A stretch of 64,000 nucleotides of DNA from Clostridiales bacterium (GTDB lineage: Bacteria > Bacillota > Clostridia > Lachnospirales > Lachnospiraceae): positions 1 through 64,000 of the forward strand of contig DUNO01000061.1 in the NCBI GenBank assembly GCA_012839295.1, given 5' to 3'. The position numbers and the translations under genes were made by a program. Position 1 is the stretch's first letter; each line of letters starts with the position of its first letter. Of the stretch, positions 10,240 to 37,870 are shown one piece after another. Under the pieces are notes generated by a model. It saw nothing but the letters and a program-made list of their open reading frames with translations, did no database searches and was not told where the DNA came from.

Positions 10240-10310
10240 AAGGAGCGACAGGACTCGAACCTGTATCCATTGACATACGTTTCATGCTCTGCCGATTGAG
10301 CTACGATCCC
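10240..10310 (-). tRNA. tRNA-like gene with defective anticodon arm
   Basis: The minus strand begins GGGATCG and has a perfect D arm (GCTC/GAGC with AATCGGCA loop) and a perfect T arm (ACAGG-TTCGAGT-CCTGT). The acceptor 3' side CGCTCCT pairs with one mismatch and one G-U. Only 21 bases separate the D and T stems instead of about 23, and no normal five-pair anticodon stem can be drawn, so the isotype cannot be assigned. No CCA is encoded. It is a degenerate phage tRNA or a tRNA mimic. It lies at the 3' end of a longer structured noncoding region. Confidence 0.6.
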
Positions 10311-10600
10311 ATATGCCAGGTTTACAAGGCACCTGGCAGCCTCCGCTTATCGTTCCCGCTTATGCCGTAATAAGCAGATGATGTATAAAGCAGTAACTAC
10401 ATCCTTCATCGGCTAATAGCCATCTTTTACTTTGAAAAAGGCTTACTCCAGAAGTCACTCTCAATCACTGAGTATGCGCTATTTGCTACCGATTTACAGG
10501 CTTCGTTTGAAATAGTAAGTCAACATACTGCCTAAACAGCCACTGGATATACTCTCATTTCCTTGGCAGTTTGATCATATCACAACCTTCGCATGAAATT
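10311..10600 (-). ncRNA. Candidate structured noncoding RNA upstream of tRNA-like gene
   Basis: This 290-base stretch is free of convincing genes. On the minus strand it contains at least five stems in series: ACTGCC with GGCAGT, GGCT-AT-TAGCC, GATGTA with TACATC, GCTTAT-TACGGC-ATAAGC, and TGCCAGGT with ACCTGGCA. The last stem ends three bases before the tRNA-like gene. Large ornate phage RNAs (GOLLD, ROOL) are known next to phage tRNAs, but this one is shorter and I cannot assign it to either. It could also include the terminase recognition site. No clear promoter was found; it may be read from the DUF1492-like gene. Confidence 0.4.
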
Positions 10601-11041
10601 CTATGAAATGTTAAAATTAATCAATGCCCTGCCGTGTAAATTAATTATCTGCCTCCCACTATACCCTAATTCTTCCCCTATCTGCTCCCATATCTTAAAT
10701 TCTATGTACCTCTTATGCAGTATCAGGCTGTCCATGCCGTCAGGTATATCAGCAATCCTGTTTTCAATCTCGATCCTAAGCTTCAGACATTCTCCCCTTA
10801 ACCTTACAATCTTAGTGAATATGATTTCGATTCTAACCATTAAGTCAGACAGATCTGTCTGCTTACCTCCCTTTGGCATATCACTCAGCTTTTGAATCTT
10901 GGCCGATTCCTCTACTTCACGAAGGGACTGCAACTGCTCCTCAAGGGACCTAAGCTTTAGGCATAAATTTTTATAGCCACTTAAGTACTGTTTTTTCTTT
11001 TCATTTTCCGTCAATCTATCTATCACCCCTTTATACCGCAT
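10601..11041 (-). CDS. Phage late transcriptional regulator, DUF1492/sigma-r4-like
   Basis: This protein of about 146 aa has an N-terminal coiled coil (residues 15-75). Its C-terminal helix-turn-helix resembles sigma region 4: LILHKRYIEFKIWEQIGEEL and GYSGRQIINLHGRAL. Such proteins lie before the packaging genes of Firmicutes phages and activate late transcription. The start is uncertain: ATG 11041 touches the AGGAGG site, ATG 11056 lacks a good site, and a TTG at 11014 has well-spaced AAGGGGTG. It overlaps the recombinase gene upstream. Confidence 0.7.
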   Translation of the reverse strand: MRYKGVIDRLTENEKKKQYLSGYKNLCLKLRSLEEQLQSLREVEESAKIQKLSDMPKGGKQTDLSDLMVRIEIIFTKIVRLRGECLKLRIEIENRIADIPDGMDSLILHKRYIEFKIWEQIGEELGYSGRQIINLHGRALINFNIS

Positions 11042-12032
11042 ACCTCCTATGCGCATCCTTAATTACATAGCTGCTTAAACGGGCATAGCATTGCAAAGTA
11101 GTCTGGATATACTTGTGTCCCAATATTTCCTTTACATGCTCCACCGGTGCCCCGTTATTGAGCATATTTGTGGCCATTGTCCTCCTGAACTTGTGTGGGT
11201 TAAGCTTTATATCTTCGCTACATATCCGATTAAGCATAGCTCTGACACCATCATCTGATAAGCGGTTATGTGGCGCACGTAATCCTACAAATAACGCCGG
11301 GTTATTATCTGTCCTGCTCTCAAGGTACCACATCAAATGCACTTTTGCCCTGCCATCAAGATACACCGGCCGCTCTTTACGGCCTTTACCGTATACGATA
11401 CACTCACCGTTTATAAAATCTATGTCAGACCTATTGAGCTTGACCAGCTCCCCAACCCTCATCCCGGTACTAGAAAGGATATTAACAATCGCCTTATCCC
11501 TCTCCTTATCGCACGAACAGCGCACAACCTCTGCCTGCATGTCCGTTATGGTGTCCATTACCTTTTGCTCTGTCTTGGCCTGCTTAATTTTAAGCATAGG
11601 ATCCTTGAGTATGTACTCCTCTGCCAGAAGCCACTTAAACAGTGTCTTAAGATTATGGATCCGGTTATTGATCGTACTGTCAATATTTTTACGTACAGTC
11701 TTGCAGTGAGCGAGATAAATCCGTATGTCATTGACCGTAATATCCCTAAAATTCTTGTTGACAAAATCAAAGAACACCCGGTACTCGCACTTATAGGCCT
11801 CTATGGTTCCGTCTGTCCTGCCCTCAATTTTTAGTGTAGCCAGAAATAGGTTGATCTTGTCGTCATTATCATCCAGGCCAGTAGCAAGTGCCGTTTCCTC
11901 CTCAAATATCTGGAGCCTGCCAAGATGCATATACAGGGAGGACTTAAGCTGGTCAAGCCCGTCCTGTGTTAAATGCTGCACTGATATTAATATTTTTGTT
12001 ATAATCTCATCAGCTTTCCACGTCAAGGGCAT
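11031..12032 (-). CDS. Second tyrosine recombinase (XerC/D-like)
   Basis: This protein of about 333 aa has a complete catalytic set: Arg in STGMRVGEL, Lys in GKGRKERPVYL, His-x-x-Arg in HKFRRTMA, His in LGHKYIQTT and Tyr in LQCYARL. A SAM-like core-binding domain lies before it (about residues 60-160). It is not at the prophage end, where another integrase (28207-29352) sits, but beside the late regulator, tRNA-like genes and packaging genes. Possible jobs are genome dimer resolution or inversion of a local segment. The start is unclear; ATG 12032, TTG 12026 or ATG 12050 are possible. Confidence 0.85.
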   Translation of the reverse strand: MPLTWKADEIITKILISVQHLTQDGLDQLKSSLYMHLGRLQIFEEETALATGLDDNDDKINLFLATLKIEGRTDGTIEAYKCEYRVFFDFVNKNFRDITVNDIRIYLAHCKTVRKNIDSTINNRIHNLKTLFKWLLAEEYILKDPMLKIKQAKTEQKVMDTITDMQAEVVRCSCDKERDKAIVNILSSTGMRVGELVKLNRSDIDFINGECIVYGKGRKERPVYLDGRAKVHLMWYLESRTDNNPALFVGLRAPHNRLSDDGVRAMLNRICSEDIKLNPHKFRRTMATNMLNNGAPVEHVKEILGHKYIQTTLQCYARLSSYVIKDAHRRYAV

Positions 12033-12126
12033 TAAGAACCATCCCGACATTATCCGGGTTATCCGTCTCCACCTCCACCAGATGCCTTATTTTTACCATT
12101 TCGTCAATGTAGATCGTACACTTCAT
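12010..12126 (-). CDS. 38-aa protein upstream of second recombinase
   Basis: It starts at ATG 12126 with AGGAAGGAGA well spaced and ends at TGA 12010, overlapping the beginning of the recombinase frame. The product (MKCTIYIDEMVKIRHLVEVE start) is acidic with no recognisable domain. The good ribosome site and overlap suggest it couples translation of the recombinase. Function is unknown. Confidence 0.5.
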   Translation of the reverse strand: MKCTIYIDEMVKIRHLVEVETDNPDNVGMVLNALDVES

Positions 12127-12385: not shown

Positions 12386-12469
12386 CTTGCTGTGATGGAA
12401 TCGGAAGACATGTTGAGTTGCCAACTCAATGAGCTTACGCTCGTGCGGGTTCGATCCCCGTCAGCCCCA
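12386..12469 (+). tRNA. Class II (long variable arm) tRNA-like gene, anticodon GCC
   Basis: The body is that of a Leu/Ser-type tRNA: D arm ATG-GAATCGGAAGA-CAT, a five-pair anticodon stem TTGAG/CTCAA around loop TTGCCAA, variable arm GAGC-TTAC-GCTC, and T arm GCGGG-TTCGATC-CCCGT. The anticodon at 12420-12422 is GCC, which reads a glycine codon, although glycine tRNAs have short variable arms. The acceptor 3' side CAGCCCC pairs with only GCTG of CTTGCTG, and the first three positions mismatch. No CCA is encoded. It has its own promoter and terminator. It may be a decayed tRNA or an anti-defence tRNA mimic. Confidence 0.6.
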
Positions 12470-13780: not shown

Positions 13781-14440
13781 CTACCTGTTAGCCCTATAAA
13801 AGGCTTCTGCAAATCCCCTGGGTGTTATGGCTCTTATGGCAGCCCTTCTTTTCGCATAGGGTAGTTTGTTAAGCCATTCGTATTCTTCTGGACAAGGCGG
13901 GTTCCCAAATAAAACGGCGTGCCTTGTCCTTATTTCCTGGTGGGGCCTTTTAAAATTAGTCTGCTTCGGGGGATTGTAATATCCCCATAAATCAGTCGGT
14001 TTGATAAAATGCGTATCCTGTTCAAAGTACCAATGCTCAAAAGTGTATTGTGGCCTGCCCAGGAACTGCCTCAGGTATCCCCTCGGGTTCTCCATTGCCC
14101 AGAACCTCAGACTGCCGTTTATCCTGCACTGCCATATGATTTTCAGGCACGCCTCCACAACCTTTATGCCTCCTTGAAAATCCCTGGATGCATTGCCTTT
14201 TGCCAAACTGAATTCCGTACACGGAGGAGCTGCCAGGATACCATAAACGTCAGCAAATGGTATCGTCATAACATTTGTCCGGTCTGCATTCCTGAAGATC
14301 AGGAAAGTGTCATCATGCCCGGTCGCCAGAATGTCAAAATCGGGAAGGGTGACCACCCTTACATCATACCCGGCTTCCCTGTACGGCCGGCTCCAAGCTC
14401 CGGTACCGCCGCAGAGGTCTAAGATAACTTTGTTGTTCAT
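13781..14440 (-). CDS. DNA cytosine-5-type methyltransferase, short phage form
   Basis: This 219-aa protein has motif I LDLCGGTGAWS at residues 7-17, motif IV catalytic Cys in APPCTEFS at about 91-98, and motif VI ENP (MENPRGYLRQ) near residue 136. It ends with a C-terminal ITPRGFAEAF that matches the closing motif. The target recognition region is very short, so it is a minimal Dcm relative of the kind found in phages. It starts at ATG 14440, overlapping the preceding gene by ATGA. It pairs with the adenine methylase 0.5 kb downstream. Confidence 0.8.
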   Translation of the reverse strand: MNNKVILDLCGGTGAWSRPYREAGYDVRVVTLPDFDILATGHDDTFLIFRNADRTNVMTIPFADVYGILAAPPCTEFSLAKGNASRDFQGGIKVVEACLKIIWQCRINGSLRFWAMENPRGYLRQFLGRPQYTFEHWYFEQDTHFIKPTDLWGYYNPPKQTNFKRPHQEIRTRHAVLFGNPPCPEEYEWLNKLPYAKRRAAIRAITPRGFAEAFYRANR

Positions 14441-16746
14441 GCCTGCTTCCCCTCCATCTCTTTCAGGAGTAAGGATATTGCATCTAACCGCATCCTGGCT
14501 TTACGCCGACCAGGCATCGTGTCATTGTTCCGGCGGTATGTATCAACATACACGGTCAGCTTCCCAAGCTCCTCCTGCACGTCAGCAATGGTGTACTGTT
14601 CATCTATATCTTCCAGGGGGTCAGGTATTGACAGCATCTTCTCCAATAATTCCAGGGCATCAAGCTGCATCTTCTCCCTGCGGACTACAGGGGCATCCAG
14701 CTGACACTCTTTGTATGCTTCCATATTTTTGCGGTGGTCATGGATGAGGGATTTTATGTCCGGTAAGCCGTACTTGGATATCCTGTCAAAATCATATTCC
14801 GGCTCTGTCTGGATGATCTCGGCTTCTACAGTTTCAACCTGCTCAGATTCTCCCGCCTTCGGGATCCATGCACTTCCCAGCTCACACCAGTCACTATCAT
14901 CTTCATAATTGCAGCAGCCATTTATATCATGACCGCAGGTGTCGCACGGAAAAGATTCTTCCTCGGTAACGGTTTCCGTTGATTCAACAGTTTCATCCTG
15001 TTTAACAACAGATTTATTGTATTTCGATGTAGCTCCAGGGATCCAATTACATAGCCTGTCGTCACAGTCATTGCACGGTAGCCCACCATCATGATCAATC
15101 ATCTTAAACTCTTCAGGGGTCATGGTGTTGTAATTACAGCTGGAGCATTGCTTTACTACTGGCTTCCCTTCCCAGAAATCGAATATAAGAGCCTCTTCCT
15201 CAGGATCAATTACATCCGAATCATTCATGGTTTCGGGCTGATTATCCACAATTCCAGTGGCATTGTCCATGGAAGCGGGGATATCATCCGGCACCGGGTG
15301 ATTTTCTTTGAATCGTTCAAACTCATTTACAACCCTCTGGTAAGCAACTTTGAAATCTTTTCCGCTGTCTGCATTTTCGAAGGCAATATAATCCTCCTGC
15401 CGCTCCGCAAAATACGTGTATGCGAACACCTCGAAGCTATCAGTCCGGGATCCGATATCGGCAGGGCTTAAGTGTTTGCCATGCAGCATATCAAAGAATT
15501 GATCTACGGTTTGTGACCGCATCCATCCATAGCCTGCATTGTCATCCTCAAATACGCCTAGCTCCCAGTTACTTTTCTTGGGCTGCCCTTTTAAAACCCT
15601 GCCAACCCCCGCAAGCTTCTCCTGGACTTCTGCGACACACTTTGGTGCCAAATTATGTATCTGTGTTACTTCGTCCAGCGTCATGCTGCAAAGCTTTTCG
15701 ATTGTATTAATTCCGGCACGTTTCAAGCAGTTATATGTTCGGACACTAAGATCCAGATCATCAATCAGCCCGGATTCCTCCGGCTCCGATTCATCCGCAT
15801 TGTCCTCAGGAAGGGAGGTACCATCCGGTTTCTTATCGTCATATACCGGATATTTTAAATACAGATCCATGAATTCATCGGTGGGCATTTCTGCCTTATC
15901 ATTGTCCCATTGGATCTCTACCTTCCCCGGGGCATTGCCATGGCTCCCGTGGAGCATGAATCTAAATTTGGGATGTCCATTCTCCGCCGGCAGTGTTTGA
16001 CCATGGTTCCCATGAAAACTCAGAAAATCTTTACAGGCTTCCTCCTTGCCTTTTTTAGTGATATCTTCTTCGAGGAACCGCCTCCATATAACCAGGGAGC
16101 ACCACTCTTCGCTCATTAAATGATCTAATATTTCTTTGGCTTTATCATGCTTTCCAATAGCTCCAAGTTGATCTCGGGAAAGTCCCTCCGGCTCCGACTT
16201 GTCGCAATTGTCACACTCTTCTGATATTCCAGCGGAGCATTTCAATCCTTCTTCTCCGGTTTCGTTAATCTGATCACGGATGAAACATTCAGGTCGCTGT
16301 TCTGCATGCAGAACGGTTTCGATTTCCTTAGTTGGCTGCTTCATCTCTCTGATTTCTGCTCTCGTGGTTGCAATTGTTACTTGCTCCAGTTGCTCATCTG
16401 ATAATGTCAGCATCTCAGCCAGTTTACTGCTCGAAAAATCTTTGTACTGGTCGAGCAGAATAGGTGAGTTTCCGTCCTTAGAAAATTTATCATTGATACT
16501 CATGAACTGGCTCGCGCTGGATTTACCAATACCAAATTCACCTTTTGCAAATTCCCATATATTTTGATAATCATCCCTTTTAAAGAGCTCATTATCCCTG
16601 ACGTATTTAAGATAGTACCCTATTGCTACAAAACTTCTGCTTGCGCTGTTAATATTGTCCTGGATAAAAACCTTAACATCTTTGTACTGGAGGTTTTTAT
16701 ACCATTCCGGATTAGGATCTATAGTCCCCTGTAGTTCTTCGTTCAC
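14437..16746 (-). CDS. Large phage protein with RNA polymerase alpha-CTD-like domain
   Basis: This 769-aa multidomain protein starts at GTG 16746, which follows AAGGAGG and overlaps the previous stop (GTGA). Residues about 15-135 form a DUF3102-like or plasmid-type HTH region (FVAIGYYLKYVRDNE, FGIGKSSASQFMSIND). Residues about 327-383 (bases 15598-15768) are an alpha-[20 protein letters not shown], then IHNLAPKCVAEVQEKL. I count about 27 of 53 positions identical to the host rpoA at 36911-37870, including Arg265, Asn268, Cys269 and Asn294 equivalents. Gly296 and Ser299 equivalents are Ala and Cys. Two Cys clusters follow (CSSCNY...CNDCDDRLC; CDTCGH...CC). A transcription-related role is inferred. 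Confidence 0.8.
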   Translation of the reverse strand: MNEELQGTIDPNPEWYKNLQYKDVKVFIQDNINSASRSFVAIGYYLKYVRDNELFKRDDYQNIWEFAKGEFGIGKSSASQFMSINDKFSKDGNSPILLDQYKDFSSSKLAEMLTLSDEQLEQVTIATTRAEIREMKQPTKEIETVLHAEQRPECFIRDQINETGEEGLKCSAGISEECDNCDKSEPEGLSRDQLGAIGKHDKAKEILDHLMSEEWCSLVIWRRFLEEDITKKGKEEACKDFLSFHGNHGQTLPAENGHPKFRFMLHGSHGNAPGKVEIQWDNDKAEMPTDEFMDLYLKYPVYDDKKPDGTSLPEDNADESEPEESGLIDDLDLSVRTYNCLKRAGINTIEKLCSMTLDEVTQIHNLAPKCVAEVQEKLAGVGRVLKGQPKKSNWELGVFEDDNAGYGWMRSQTVDQFFDMLHGKHLSPADIGSRTDSFEVFAYTYFAERQEDYIAFENADSGKDFKVAYQRVVNEFERFKENHPVPDDIPASMDNATGIVDNQPETMNDSDVIDPEEEALIFDFWEGKPVVKQCSSCNYNTMTPEEFKMIDHDGGLPCNDCDDRLCNWIPGATSKYNKSVVKQDETVESTETVTEEESFPCDTCGHDINGCCNYEDDSDWCELGSAWIPKAGESEQVETVEAEIIQTEPEYDFDRISKYGLPDIKSLIHDHRKNMEAYKECQLDAPVVRREKMQLDALELLEKMLSIPDPLEDIDEQYTIADVQEELGKLTVYVDTYRRNNDTMPGRRKARMRLDAISLLLKEMEGKQA

Positions 16747-17030
16747 TCGAATCCCTCCTTTAACTCTTTTATAAATTCCCTGGCCTGCTCCATACCGTAT
16801 ATTACCCGGAAGTCGCATCCCATCTGCATAAACTGCTCACGTTGCCATACCTGTATCCCGGACAGCTTTCCGATAACCCGTTTCAGCTCCACGAAATAAA
16901 CTTTGCCATGAGGAAAAAGATATATCCGGTCCGGCACCCCGGGATTGTCCGGGCTGATGAACTTATACGACTTACCGCCGAGTTTCTTAATCTGGGTATT
17001 TAGCCAGCTTTCAATCTCACTTTCTAGCAT
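16743..17030 (-). CDS. VRR-NUC domain nuclease
   Basis: This 95-aa protein matches the whole VRR-NUC fold. It has an initial helix ESEIESWLNTQIKKLGG, the active-site motif GVPDRIYLFP (Asp), VYFVELKRVIGKLS (Glu-x-Lys) and a final Q in QVWQREQF. Such standalone phage nucleases are holliday-junction-like or repair nucleases and often sit by the replication helicase. It overlaps genes on both sides by a few bases. All expected catalytic residues are present. Confidence 0.85.
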   Translation of the reverse strand: MLESEIESWLNTQIKKLGGKSYKFISPDNPGVPDRIYLFPHGKVYFVELKRVIGKLSGIQVWQREQFMQMGCDFRVIYGMEQAREFIKELKEGFE

Positions 17031-17527: not shown

Positions 17528-19417
17528 TCATTTGCCTTGTCCGGTTGCGCTCTTCCATCTTTCATCCGGCCATCCACCGTCGGTGGGATCATCTGCCCCG
17601 AATGGAAGCTGTGTCTGCCCGACCGGCTCAAATTCCGTATCCGGCTCAATAAGGCATATACACCATAGTTTAGTATTGTTAATACTGACCTTTTTAAATT
17701 CACGGTTTTCAGTATATTCCGTATATCCTTTCTGTTTCATCCAGCTTGCGAGGGCTTTTGAATCATAACCCCCGTCATTGCATAACCTTTCAAATACTGT
17801 TTTAAGTATGTTGGTCCTGCCCTTGGATAAGCTTCCCCAGCACTCACCATTCGGGGAGTATCCACCGTTTATGAGTTTATAGTGGTTCGCTGCTATCATG
17901 TCCCGCAGGTATTCATAAGCCCTCAGGTTCATGTCAACTGATTCCCTGGAGTGGAGGTACTTTTCAATGTCACCAGCTGTCAGGGCGTTCCCGTCACAGA
18001 AAATCCACCTGGTTGCCAGTGCATCAGCTGTCAGTATGATTGCGGCTGCCATGGTCTGCTTTTCCGTGGAATCAGTTCCCAGGGCATTATAAAACTCCTT
18101 GTAAAGCCTTGCCGCTTCTTCCTTGGCAGCATCATTGCTCAGGATTTCAATAAACCGCCTTCCTGCATCCCCGTAATTCTTCCGGATGATATCCGCCACT
18201 TTTGGGGCATCCTCAAAAAGCTTGCCCTTACATTCGATTTCTATGATCCTGTTGACGGCGCCACCCCCGGATGAAGCGTTGGTGACCGGGGATTCCCCGG
18301 AAGTCAGGGTACAGTTCTTCCATGTCGGTGTATCCTGGATCCCGCCGGTTTTCTTTCCCCTTAAACGCCCGATCCCTTCACAGATCATATAGACAATCCC
18401 TTCAAACATCTTCTTGTCCTTGACCAGCTGGAATTCATCCAGGATGAGCGGCATGCTGTTCGTAAAACCCTCCAGGAGCTCAATTGCTACCTGGGTACCA
18501 TTAAAGGTCTGTATGTATCCGTCCTCTGCCGGGTTTGCCCATACGGAGGCTGCAAGCATCAGGGAAACGGTCTTTCCTGCCTCCGTGCCTCCCCATAAAT
18601 GGACCATAAAATTAAGTTTGCCCAGGATCCTTATAAGCACGCTGGCAAAACTGGCAGCCAACATGATTTTTGCAGGGGAATCCGTAGAACGCACCGCCTT
18701 GGCAACCTTTAGCCACTCCTCGAAATCGCCCTCCGGCCTAACGGAATCGTATATGATCTTGAAGTTATTCACCCCATCAAATATCAGGTCATCGACATAA
18801 GGGCTGAACCCGTCACTGTTTGTCCACCCGAGCCGGCCGACTGATTTATGGTGGGGAAGGATATCATAATTGATGTTTTCCACGTCATGGAGGTAGCGCA
18901 CCAGGTATTTTGAGTTTTCGGAAGTAACCGCAACACCGTTATTGGCAAGCTCAAGGATATTGTTTGCACTGGCGATCGTCCGCCTCTCGTATATCTCATC
19001 CCTCCAAAACTTGCCTTTACGGAATGCAATGCGTATCTTTTCTATCCCGGTATCGATGTTGGTCAGGCATTCCACCGGCATGATCGGGTGTACGCATGCA
19101 ATGTCCTCGCCGTTGCGTTCATTCCTCCGGGAGACACCGAAATCATCCGCCAGCCATTCCCCGGTCTTAAGCTCCATCTCCTGGCCGTCAAACTGGGTCA
19201 CGTTGTCTATTATTACGCCCCTTCCGGCCTGTTCCTCGGCATAAGCCTTTAGCATCCTCCCAAAATCCTTGAACCCGACACTGGCCGCATTTTCTTTTAA
19301 TGACGTGAATACCTGATTATACTTGAACCGGTTGTTCCTGAGGTCAAACAAAAGCTTGTAAGGGGCTTCCGTATTGAATTCCTGTTTAGTAAACTGCCTG
19401 ACGGCTTCATCTGCCAT
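17528..19417 (-). CDS. DUF927 superfamily replicative helicase
   Basis: This 629-aa protein has its DUF927 core in the middle. It includes SVGRLGWTNSDGFSPY, Walker A WGGTEAGKTVSL near residue 275, Walker B MPLILDEFQ near 325, and an arginine-finger-like GAVNRIIEIEC near 400. It is the superfamily III type ATPase that acts as the replicative helicase of many Firmicutes phages. The N-terminal region is not a recognisable primase. The C-terminus may contact DNA (WMKQKGYTEY). It ends eleven bases before the iteron cluster and overlaps the preceding gene by eleven bases. Confidence 0.85.
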   Translation of the reverse strand: MADEAVRQFTKQEFNTEAPYKLLFDLRNNRFKYNQVFTSLKENAASVGFKDFGRMLKAYAEEQAGRGVIIDNVTQFDGQEMELKTGEWLADDFGVSRRNERNGEDIACVHPIMPVECLTNIDTGIEKIRIAFRKGKFWRDEIYERRTIASANNILELANNGVAVTSENSKYLVRYLHDVENINYDILPHHKSVGRLGWTNSDGFSPYVDDLIFDGVNNFKIIYDSVRPEGDFEEWLKVAKAVRSTDSPAKIMLAASFASVLIRILGKLNFMVHLWGGTEAGKTVSLMLAASVWANPAEDGYIQTFNGTQVAIELLEGFTNSMPLILDEFQLVKDKKMFEGIVYMICEGIGRLRGKKTGGIQDTPTWKNCTLTSGESPVTNASSGGGAVNRIIEIECKGKLFEDAPKVADIIRKNYGDAGRRFIEILSNDAAKEEAARLYKEFYNALGTDSTEKQTMAAAIILTADALATRWIFCDGNALTAGDIEKYLHSRESVDMNLRAYEYLRDMIAANHYKLINGGYSPNGECWGSLSKGRTNILKTVFERLCNDGGYDSKALASWMKQKGYTEYTENREFKKVSINNTKLWCICLIEPDTEFEPVGQTQLPFGADDPTDGGWPDERWKSATGQGK

Positions 19418-28206: not shown

Positions 28207-29352
28207 ATGGCAGCAACAGCAAAAAAATTACCAAGCGGCTCCTGGAGGGCGCTGGCCTACAGTCACAGTGAGCCAATGTTCAAAGATGGAAAACCGGTTC
28301 TTGATGAAAATGGGAAACAAAAGCAAAGGAGGGTCTACGAATCCTTTACCAGCGACGACCCATCACCAGCCGGGAAGAAAGAGGCTGAGTTCGCAGCAGC
28401 TGAATTCATGCTGAATAAAGGTAAGGCAAAGAAGAAGAAAAAAGATTATGGTAAAATGAAACTCGGGGACGCCATCGATGAATACATAAAATCAAGAAAA
28501 GCACTTAACCGCTCCCCGACTACAATACAGGAATACGAATGCACCCGAAATCATGGTTTCCAGGATTTAATGGACATGCTCCTTGAAGATATAGACGAAG
28601 AGATCGCGCAAGAAGCAATCAATGTCGAGGCAAAAAGGCCGTCCAAAAAAAGAACCAAGAATCCAAAGCCGATATCAGCCAAACGCCTAAAAAATGAATG
28701 GTGCTTAATAAATGCCGTCCTACATAAATACCGTAGAGACTTTGACTTTGAAGAAATTGAGCTTCCTAAAGTCGTTCCCAGGGCCGTAGAACTCCCTCCG
28801 GCACGGGAAGTCCTACGGATCATCAAAGGTACTGATATAGAACTTCCTGTACTTTTAGCCGCATGGCTATCTTTCTCGATGAGCGAAGTCCGAGGACTGA
28901 CAAAATCTAAATCCGTACGTGGGAATTACATCATGATCAACGAGGTCGTCGTGGATGTGCATAACAAGCCTTTACGTAAAGACATAGCCAAGAACCCTAC
29001 CCGTAACCGGAGGCACCGGATACCCCCATATATTAAAAGCTTGATCGATCAGGTGGAGGGAGATGCCCTGGTACCGATCAGCGGCAGGGCATTGTTCCAT
29101 CGTTGGATCAGATTGCAGAATGAAAATAATATAGATCATATTACCTTTCACGATCTGCGGCACCTTAATGCATCTATTATGGCGCTCCTTCGGGTGCCGG
29201 ATAAATACGCCCAAGAGCGCGGCGGCTGGAAGAGTGACCAGGTTATGAAAAAAGTATATATGCAGACGTTTTCCGAGGAAAGAGAGAGAGTAGATGATCT
29301 GATGGATGAATATTTTGAAAAAGCTATTATGGCAGATGAAGAAGGAAGTTGA
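28207..29352 (+). CDS. Prophage integrase, tyrosine recombinase
   Basis: This 381-aa protein has an N-terminal arm-binding region, a core-binding domain (about 90-190), and a catalytic domain with Arg in SMSEVRGLTK, HDLRH at about 318, and Tyr in MKKVYMQTF. The second His is replaced by Trp in RGGWKSD, a change seen in many phage integrases. It faces the attachment site, 160 bases beyond its stop. Two TTTCGTGTTGC direct repeats after its end may be arm sites. ATG 28207 follows AAGGAGG. Confidence 0.9.
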   Translation: MAATAKKLPSGSWRALAYSHSEPMFKDGKPVLDENGKQKQRRVYESFTSDDPSPAGKKEAEFAAAEFMLNKGKAKKKKKDYGKMKLGDAIDEYIKSRKALNRSPTTIQEYECTRNHGFQDLMDMLLEDIDEEIAQEAINVEAKRPSKKRTKNPKPISAKRLKNEWCLINAVLHKYRRDFDFEEIELPKVVPRAVELPPAREVLRIIKGTDIELPVLLAAWLSFSMSEVRGLTKSKSVRGNYIMINEVVVDVHNKPLRKDIAKNPTRNRRHRIPPYIKSLIDQVEGDALVPISGRALFHRWIRLQNENNIDHITFHDLRHLNASIMALLRVPDKYAQERGGWKSDQVMKKVYMQTFSEERERVDDLMDEYFEKAIMADEEGS

Positions 29353-36910: not shown

Positions 36911-37870
36911 TTAGTCGTCGCTTGCATTCAGTGATAATCCAAGCTCCTTTAATTTTGCAAGTACTTCTTCTAAAGACTTACGTCCGAGATTTCTTACCTT
37001 CATCATATCTTCCGCTGTCTTGTTCGTAAGCTCTTCAACGGTATTGATGCCCGCCCTCTTAAGGCAGTTATAAGAACGAACGGATAATTCAAGTTCGTCG
37101 ATATTCATCTCAAGAACCTTTTCTTTTTCATTGTCTTCCTTCTCGACCATGATTTCAGCGGTCTTTGCATGCTCAGACAAATCAATAAAGGAATTCAGAT
37201 GCTCGCTTAATACCTTTGCAGCCAAGCTTACAGCCTCATCCGGGATGAGTGTGCCATTGGTATATACATCCAAGGTAAGCTTATCAAAGTCTGTAATCTG
37301 ACCAACACGGGTATTCTCTACCGTAAGGTTAACACGCTCAACAGGAGTATAGATGGAGTCAATCGGAATGACACCGATTGGCAAATCATCATTCTTATTC
37401 TTGTCTGCGCTTACATAGCCCCTACCGTTTGTAATAGTCAGCTCCATGTAGAGCCTGCTATCAGGTCCACCACATAAGGTTGCGATTACTTGATCAGGAT
37501 TGAGTATCTCGATATCCGGGTCAGCCTGTATATCCCCTGCTGTCACTACAACTTCACCCTCAGCCTCAATATATGCGGTCTTAGGCTCATTCGTATCGCT
37601 TGTGTTTTTGATTGCTAAGCTTTTGATATTCATGATAATCTCAGTAACGTCTTCCTTAACACCTGGAATTGCACTGAATTCATGAACAACACCGTCAATC
37701 TTAATTTGACTTACAGCAGAACCTGGCAAGGATGAAAGCATAATTCTTCTGAGGGAATTACCTAAGGTTGTACCATAGCCTCTCTCCAGAGGTTCTACTA
37801 CAAAACGTCCAAACTTCTTATCTTCGGAAATTTCTGCAATCTCTATTTTGGGTTTCTCAAAATCAAACAC
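36911..37870 (-). CDS. rpoA: RNA polymerase alpha subunit
   Basis: This 319-aa protein has the dimer-forming N-terminal domain ([20 protein letters not shown]) and a C-terminal domain (about 252-305). The latter contains [16 protein letters not shown] and [15 protein letters not shown], with all DNA-contact positions (Arg265, Asn268, Asn294, Ser299 equivalents) present. It is the host counterpart of the alpha-CTD-like domain in the phage protein at 14437-16746. It lies in the usual place between rpsD and rplQ. Confidence 0.97.

Follow-up and report, generated by a model that had tools for sequence, protein, structure and literature searches.

The first 64 kb of contig DUNO01000061.1 from a Clostridiales bacterium of the Lachnospiraceae (assembly GCA_012839295.1; 82 contigs, 97.9% complete, 3.9% contaminated), referred to here as the window, begins within an integrated tailed-phage prophage. 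One gene of this prophage encodes a large mosaic protein that carries, in the middle of its chain, a domain matching the C-terminal domain of the RNA polymerase alpha subunit (alpha-CTD). The domain belongs to a single clade of phage fusions that is separate from rpoA, and it combines a well-kept first helix with a changed hairpin. We tentatively propose that it is a putative contact module directed at promoters or at polymerase, with a retuned hairpin, on a shuffled protein of the phage replication block. The alpha-CTD itself and the attack of phages on it are known; what is new is the protein setting of the domain and the derived hairpin shared by its relatives. A literature search returned no paper on phage-encoded alpha-CTD fusions, as judged by titles and the beginnings of abstracts, which does not imply absence from print.

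14437..16746, minus strand: phage fusion gene, a mosaic with an alpha-CTD module; 769 amino acids from GTG, 793 from the ATG at 16818
15592..15795, minus strand: alpha-CTD module, residues 342-409; PF03118 E 1.2e-18; PDB 3gfk_B E 1.4e-14; Foldseek 1z3e_B 0.7 Å over 62 columns
36911..37870, minus strand: host rpoA, used for comparison, outside the phage; all three alpha domains by Pfam

The fusion gene is a minus-strand open reading frame (ORF) with its stop end at 14437, open to an ATG at 16818 (793 amino acids). The GTG at 16746 is the likelier start, because AAGGAGGG precedes it, because it shares bases with the stop of the nuclease gene upstream and because relatives open with MSEELQ or MNEELQ at the matching point. 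An initial annotation of this DNA, made from the sequence alone, had also placed this end of the gene at 16746; the protein is then of 769 amino acids. Residue numbers below follow the 793-residue reading; those of the initial annotation are 24 lower.

An alpha-CTD outside RpoA

The Pfam family PF03118 (RNA_pol_A_CTD) matched residues 342-402 with 67 bits against a gathering cut-off of 23.8 (E 1.2e-18), and a Pfam scan of the fusion ORF at E <=1 returned no other family. Across the whole host assembly only rpoA and the fusion ORF matched PF03118 at E <=0.001, and the match is therefore not a chance one. The nearest solved structures by sequence were alpha subunits, with the Bacillus subtilis domain first (3gfk_B, E 1.4e-14). 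In an AlphaFold2 model of residues 334-520, model residues 21-70, which form the domain core, had a predicted local distance difference test score (pLDDT) of 81-88 by block. A Foldseek search with the alpha-CTD model gave as best match the Spx-bound B. subtilis alpha-CTD (1z3e_B, 0.7 Å over 62 columns), and all 22 matches at E <=0.001 were RNA polymerase or alpha-CTD entries. The homology to alpha-CTD claimed initially is borne out by these searches and by the superposition, and both sequence and model indicate a true alpha-CTD, not a generic helix-hairpin-helix without an alpha-specific surface.

The protein is nevertheless not an RpoA. The N-terminal and dimerisation domains of alpha (PF01000 and PF01193) were absent from the fusion ORF in Pfam at E <=1, whereas host rpoA has all three domains, and the best score against curated rpoA models was 61.4 bits (NF003515, cut-off 406). 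Compared with the bacterial alpha-CTD (B. subtilis 1z3e and 3gfk), the module has the same fold and the same R265, N268, C269, K271 and acidic residues 258, 259 and 261. It differs in lacking the alpha N-terminal domain, in having Ala at G296 and Cys at S299, and in its mid-chain position in a 769-residue mosaic.

Relation to host rpoA and to other fusions

The fused alpha-CTD and that of host rpoA are identical at 30 of 59 protein positions and at 0.57 of DNA positions, and synonymous change is saturated (pS 0.77). This agrees with the earlier count of 27 identical residues of 53 and with the remark that the codons differ widely, and the long divergence fits an old acquisition. The description of the domain as a copy of host rpoA did not hold: a phylogenetic tree places it together with the domains of six further phage fusions and away from rpoA. 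A recent copy of host rpoA is ruled out by this tree and by the codon divergence.

Searching with the N-terminal domain and sorting the ORFs by domain models gave seven distinct proteins with both domains, i.e. six beyond that of the window, so that the fusion does occur in other phages. These are the window protein, a 443-residue protein and the proteins of loci L051, L052, L054, L057 and L062; the 443-residue protein occurs both in a genome belonging to the same genus and on viral contigs (L004, L036, L049, L050 and L081). The seven fused alpha-CTDs form one clade (support 96/94), to the exclusion of 19 rpoA sequences and of six further proteins. The clade was kept at 96/86 in a larger tree of 72 rows, with the viral protein L117 inside it, which has Ser at 296 and Cys at 299 like the fused clade. 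In a survey of 34 genomes of the genus, a match of the fused-clade type was found in two (122 and 128 bits); the remaining matches were at most 81.1 bits and in rpoA-length frames, and three genomes gave no match.

Within the alpha-CTD, dN/dS was 0.07-0.17 in five of six pairs among L036, L051, L054 and L057, the sixth pair (L057-L051) having saturated dS and no usable ratio. Between the window and the five non-degenerate relatives synonymous sites were saturated and pN was 0.19-0.27. Pairs with L052 gave higher dN/dS, 0.23 with the window and 0.32 with L062. The low ratios show that the module is maintained by purifying selection, i.e. that it is in use.

Helix 1 is kept and the hairpin is changed

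Residues of the domain are given in Escherichia coli numbering. We take positions 265, 268, 269, 294, 296, 298, 299 and 302 to be the DNA contacts, and the acidic patch at 258, 259 and 261 to face sigma in E. coli. The window protein keeps six of the eight assumed contacts, all but 296 and 299, and the equivalents of R265, N268, C269 and N294 named in the initial annotation are all present. In the 793-residue reading, R265, G296 and S299 correspond to Arg360, Ala391 and Cys394. Helix 1 is identical to host alpha at 17 of 20 positions, with R265, N268, C269 and K271 kept; residues 265-273 (RTYNCLKRA) are the best-kept stretch, and the hairpin has diverged. Among the seven fused domains, N268 is found in all, R265, C269, K298 and E302 in six each and N294 in five, and Asp occupies 258, 259 and 261 in all seven. 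Position 296 is Ser in five relatives, Ala in the window protein and Gly in the degenerate L052 alone.

G296 corresponds to G292 of B. subtilis alpha and R265 to R261 (query 7-76 on 6wvj_A chain 241-310), a placement made because the PDB match ranges are equal in length. The substitutions G292A and R261A could reportedly not be introduced in B. subtilis alpha, according to a paper citing earlier work (PMC4495994), and this supports the importance of positions 265 and 296. Judged by its residues, helix 1 of the module appears alpha-like and the hairpin does not. The initial suggestion that the protein mimics alpha at UP elements is weakened, and exact or straightforward mimicry seems unlikely because of the hairpin changes from Gly to Ala and from S299 to Cys.

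A shuffled protein with an optional alpha-CTD

The remainder of the protein could be divided into six further modules.

16279..16713, minus strand: N-terminal helical domain, phrog_15077-like; residues 36-180; PHROG E 3.4e-45; pLDDT 86.7; 58 distinct relatives
15814..16293, minus strand: second module, residues 176-335; by iterated search its Cys-containing start is common with L055 and L057 and the rest with L053
15259..15588, minus strand: module after the alpha-CTD, residues 411-520; one relative, L062, in the same order, 200 bits
15004..15201, minus strand: first cysteine cluster module, residues 540-605; common with L068, L005, L052, L055 and L056, and partly with L047
14809..14976, minus strand: second cysteine cluster module, residues 615-670; common with L005, L047, L052 and L057
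14440..14811, minus strand: C-terminal module, residues 670-793; common with L068, L051, L062, L004 and others

A scan of viral contigs with the whole protein gave two stretches that fit a pattern and no confirmed relative, and relatives were therefore searched by module. Every module searched besides the alpha-CTD recurred in one or more relatives, for the most part combined differently, in agreement with the initial view that the domain is fused to other modules. Relatives also carry, as modules, the two cysteine clusters noted there, which lie at about residues 557-590 and 622-647 of the window protein. The start of the second module is followed directly by an alpha-CTD in L057, and L053 and L055 are without an alpha-CTD. 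For the module that follows the alpha-CTD the model was poor (block pLDDT 43-68), and no claim is based on it.

The N-terminal domain matched the phrog_15077 profile at residues 38-173 (E 3.4e-45). The window protein shares this domain and similar gene neighbours with the clostridial phage family of that profile, most members of which, unlike the window protein, have no alpha-CTD: among 58 distinct forms of the domain, it was present in seven. All seven fusions fall in one group of 15 on the N-terminal tree (support 86, midpoint root), among eight without the alpha-CTD. Presence of the alpha-CTD requires five changes on this tree, two of them forced by strongly supported branches, and its start position varies from residue 142 to residue 342 across the fusions. 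With its modules recurring in other combinations, a varying alpha-CTD start and a patchy tree, the protein is a shuffled mosaic that can do with or without the alpha-CTD module.

AlphaFold2 predicts the N-terminal domain confidently as mainly helical. It gave no match among PDB folds (best E 4.4), and the window member had no Pfam family over the cut-off. Four predicted viral proteins in BFVD matched at E <=0.001, the first being a 392-residue phage protein with 44% identity. The initial assignment of a plasmid-type helix-turn-helix (HTH) found little support here. Aligned with hhalign, the 58 domains matched 13 ParB proteins from related genomes, a set without KorB, at a probability of 0.2 percent, and ParB was rejected. 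The hints of a plasmid-type protein were weak: the Borrelia family borfam_49, 'chromosome replication/partitioning' (E 0.0061 and 17.1 bits, the cut-off being 60), and BFVD entries with the names chromosome partitioning or ParB-like (E 0.64 to 8). DUF3102 was likewise rejected, with no matches in 61 related genomes and TM scores of 0.48-0.59 (E 0.018-0.67) for BFVD DUF3102 proteins. In L011 (595-1884) the N-terminal domain seems to be followed by a C-terminal module that looks by eye like ASCH/DUF3850.

Other phage and bacterial proteins with the domain

Viral contigs were scanned with the fused-clade domain as query, giving 17 loci, and with a diverse query set, giving 45 loci; several contigs were found in both. 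The 45 loci comprise 20 proteins with sigma-70 region 4 and alpha-CTD, five of the window's family, 19 of other builds and one (L165) without an ORF hit. The alpha N-terminal domain was found in none of them (phmmer with host rpoA residues 1-230, E <=1e-5). In all 20 sigma-4 fusions a single ORF encodes sigma region 4 first, then a gap of 44-78 residues and then the alpha-CTD. Pfam confirmed both domains in all 14 that were scanned; L143, L144, L150, L155, L160 and L161 were left out of that scan, and the 20 include near-copies (L158/L160/L161 and L136/L143). Five of those scanned (L116, L118, L120, L137 and L158) have an HTH, general or of Cro/C1 type, ahead of both domains. Four of the 14 were scanned as L115, L116, L118 and L120, and the 20 loci lie among L123-L161.

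Like the window protein, the sigma-4 fusions (L115, L116, L118, L120, L126, L129, L132, L137 and others) have the module outside alpha; they differ in their near-full set of DNA contacts and in sigma region 4, which the window protein lacks. These single-chain proteins seem more striking than the window's own fusion. It is natural to suppose, by analogy, that one chain would read both -35-like and UP-like elements, because in the holoenzyme sigma region 4 meets the -35 element and the alpha-CTD meets the UP element (PMC2988021). The whole set of such proteins, and the sigma-4 fusions in particular, offers natural constructs for studying which of the promoter contacts of polymerase can function outside the enzyme.

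Named phages also have PF03118 proteins: Bacillus phage vB_BmeM-Goe8 (QDP42789.1, 'RNA polymerase subunit alpha'), Microbacterium phage Atraxi (gp24) and Mycobacterium phage Zenteno07 (gp68). Unlike the window protein they are of 139-210 residues, with other N-terminal parts and the alpha-CTD towards the C-terminus, and the actinophage alpha-CTD-like proteins are annotated 'DNA binding protein'. Three of 16 records from the phage-record search were examined, the other 13 not being counted: Goe8 has a genuine phage fusion, L034 a complete rpoA (316 residues) and L035 the N-terminal domain without the alpha-CTD. Of 56 plasmid records three were examined, two being full rpoA beside ribosomal genes and the third an unannotated, rpoA-like ORF of 317 residues, and plasmids were left out of the counts. 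An alpha-CTD-like fold has also been described in an unrelated protein, as a helical domain of the BREX kinase PglW (PMC12839542). PglW differs in being a kinase defence protein, and by sequence it matched the window protein only at E 0.11 (10.1 bits, cut-off 990).

Other arrangements were seen in passing. In related bacterial assemblies, L041 (6756-9386) encodes 877 residues with the alpha-CTD before sigma region 4, the reverse of the viral order, and L039 (6847-8682) encodes 612 residues with an alpha-CTD and an AAA ATPase with AAA_lid_6. Adjacent pairs of small genes, each with an alpha-CTD-like domain, occur in the viral contigs L112 (4443-5222), L140 (7-763), L142 (2436-3192) and L163 (2231-2726); they encode 84 residues and then 175, 167 or 97, and overlap in L163. 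By a hand count with at most 14 candidates scored per genome, 58 of 397 genomes of the family have at least two PF03118 matches. Some of the extra matches are presumably second rpoA copies or contamination, but non-rpoA alpha-CTD proteins look common in the family.

Conservation of the DNA-binding face

The search pattern behind the 45 viral loci was [VI]R[TS][YF]NCLK, and conservation of positions 264-265 and 267-271 in them is therefore partly built in. The contact test was restricted to positions 272-310, comparing identity to host alpha at contacts 294, 296, 298, 299 and 302 with that at the rest; the position shuffles take the sequences as unrelated, ignoring kinship. It used 53 non-rpoA domains, omitting the repeat loci L001-L003, domains below 35 bits and identical domains, and including six from bacterial assemblies (L039-L042, L045 and L048). 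The 72-row tree omits three more rows, L048 and 84-residue domains.

Over all 53 domains identity was 0.72 at the contacts and 0.36 elsewhere (30 of 20,000 shuffles as high). For the 19 sigma-4 domains, 18 viral and one from a genome assembly (L041), it was 0.87 against 0.39 (4 of 20,000), and for 27 other domains 0.67 against 0.34 (97 of 20,000). With conservative changes counted as matches the result was weaker, with 961 of 20,000 shuffles as high for all 53 domains, 28 for the sigma-4 set and 1451 for the 27 others. Including 265, 268 and 269 gave 0.79 against 0.43 (5 of 20,000), a pattern-biased figure that is not relied on. The activator-facing set (285-288 and 290; 0.25) and the sigma-facing set (0.32) showed little identity to host, though D or E was found at 258, 259 and 261 in 44, 42 and 40 of the 53 domains.

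Possible roles of the module

In favour of a contact module directed at promoters or polymerase, the PF03118 and PDB matches are alpha-specific, and the fused domains form one clade with low dN/dS and kept helix-1 residues. By analogy, other phage alpha-CTD proteins occur in a promoter-like context (20 of 45 with sigma region 4), and the neighbours of the gene serve replication, methylation and phage transcription regulation. On this proposal a single ancient transfer from a bacterial alpha would have brought the alpha-CTD into the phage protein family, whose members would since have gained or lost it. The helix-1 face (R265, N268, C269 and K271) and the acidic patch may touch AT-rich minor-groove DNA, polymerase or both, the polymerase-side partners presumably being parts that normally meet the alpha-CTD, e.g. 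sigma region 4. Such contact would anchor the remaining parts of the protein at promoters or on polymerase. With its altered hairpin the module would be retuned and not a simple substitute for alpha at UP elements. The analysis itself establishes the domain, its clade and selection, the mosaic build, the residue pattern and the gene order; contact of the window module with DNA or polymerase, and any effect on transcription, is what we infer from these features.

Several observations weigh against the proposal. In the window's clade of seven, identity at the contacts was 0.51 against 0.35 elsewhere (4383 of 20,000 shuffles as high), i.e. no signal, and with conservative changes as matches 15543 of 20,000 shuffles were as high. 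Across the wider class, then, the DNA face is conserved, with the clearest signal in the sigma-4 fusions, and for the clade of the window such conservation is not demonstrated. G296 is lost in all six non-degenerate fused domains and S299 in all seven (Cys in six, Tyr in one), and L052 retains the module in a degenerate form without R265, C269 and K298. Furthermore, 51 of the 58 N-terminal family members do without the alpha-CTD, and the Pfam scan of the fusion ORF at E <=1 found no sigma-70 region 4 (Sigma70_r4). To our knowledge, no experiment, binding site or regulon has been reported for the fusion protein.

The changed hairpin also suits a plain helix-hairpin-helix module that binds DNA within a protein for replication, recombination or packaging and has no connection with RNA polymerase. 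The gene lies among those for a DUF927 primase, ERCC4 and VRR-like nucleases, RecT and methyltransferases, and alpha-CTD-like domains do occur in other chains, after the BREX PglW kinase (PMC12839542) and in the actinophage proteins mentioned above. We nevertheless consider this explanation rather unlikely; helix 1 matches host alpha at 17 of 20 positions, beyond what a generic fold needs, and all seven fused domains have Asp at 258, 259 and 261.

That residues 265-273 are the best kept, with the hairpin diverged, could also be explained by a decoy. The helix-1 surface of alpha would then be offered to factors of the host or of rival phages that grip the alpha-CTD, such as Spx-type anti-alpha proteins, ADP-ribosyltransferases hitting Arg265 or proteins of the gp67 type, sparing or freeing polymerase. 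The top structural match is a Spx-bound alpha-CTD, and phages are known to attack the domain: T4 Alt and ModA act on Arg265 (PMC2988021), and gp67 targets the alpha-CTD (PMC4495994). A decoy would not need a mosaic of other modules, however, there is no sign here of high expression, and Arg265 is lost in L052, which makes this role quite improbable. A passenger domain without a current role, picked up by recombination in mosaic phage proteins, would account for the patchy presence in seven of 58 relatives and for the degeneration in L052, but purifying selection and a derived hairpin shared by six members make it very unlikely.

If the proposed contact module is real, it would differ from the known ways in which phages modify, cut or block the host alpha-CTD: a fused alpha-CTD of their own would be a strategy of borrowing the promoter-sensing part. 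By keeping helix 1 and changing the hairpin, the members of the fused clade set the two halves of the DNA-binding face apart. The presence of the same domain in many other phage proteins, often after a sigma-factor-like domain, suggests that phages reuse a piece of the host transcription machinery. A wider and more doubtful speculation is that phages repeatedly took the alpha-CTD as a portable promoter-recognition part. The sigma-4 fusions, the most frequent build here, would then read -35 and UP elements free of core polymerase, and the window protein would be a divergent branch, its hairpin adapted to a new partner, either DNA or protein, on a shuffled replication-block protein.

Prophage setting

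The prophage genes reach about 29.4 kb, and one element holds the genes for small and large terminase, portal, minor and major head proteins and integrase, and a repressor-like gene. The initial assignment to a phage was thus right. The gene block around the fusion gene encodes a transcription regulator, methyltransferases, a VRR-NUC-like nuclease, a DUF927 primase/helicase, an ERCC4 nuclease, RecT and an AAA protein, and the fusion gene is part of this replication or early block.

16743..17030, minus strand: VRR-NUC-like nuclease gene, upstream; phrog_93 endonuclease E 1.1e-22; Pfam VRR_NUC under its cut-off; stop overlaps the GTG
13781..14440, minus strand: DNA methyltransferase gene, downstream; phrog_757 E 1.1e-32; start overlaps the stop of the fusion gene
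17528..19417, minus strand: DUF927 primase/helicase; Pfam and PHROG matches; same direction as the fusion gene
10601..11056, minus strand: phage transcription regulator, downstream; phrog_36; DUF1492 under the cut-off
28207..29352, plus strand: integrase, a tyrosine recombinase (Phage_integrase)

The fusion gene overlaps both neighbours and is therefore probably co-transcribed and translationally coupled with them. Among 14 related loci, which include some elements present twice (two collections), the small ORF at 17024 was matched in 13 and the DUF927 and ERCC4 genes in 10 each. The regulator at 10601-11056 is 64-67% identical to its counterparts in L036, L049 and L062.

The prophage has two tyrosine-recombinase genes, one by the late regulator (11031-12050, minus strand) and one by the repressor-like gene (28207-29352, plus strand). 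ARAGORN called a tmRNA at 10241-10461 inside the prophage. At Rfam thresholds, window positions 1-34000 gave only a tRNA at 10240-10310 (minus strand, 41.6 bits) and, with a lower score, another at 12389-12465 (plus strand, 33.6 bits), within the prophage as well. Both are probably phage tRNA genes, and the tmRNA call is probably false.

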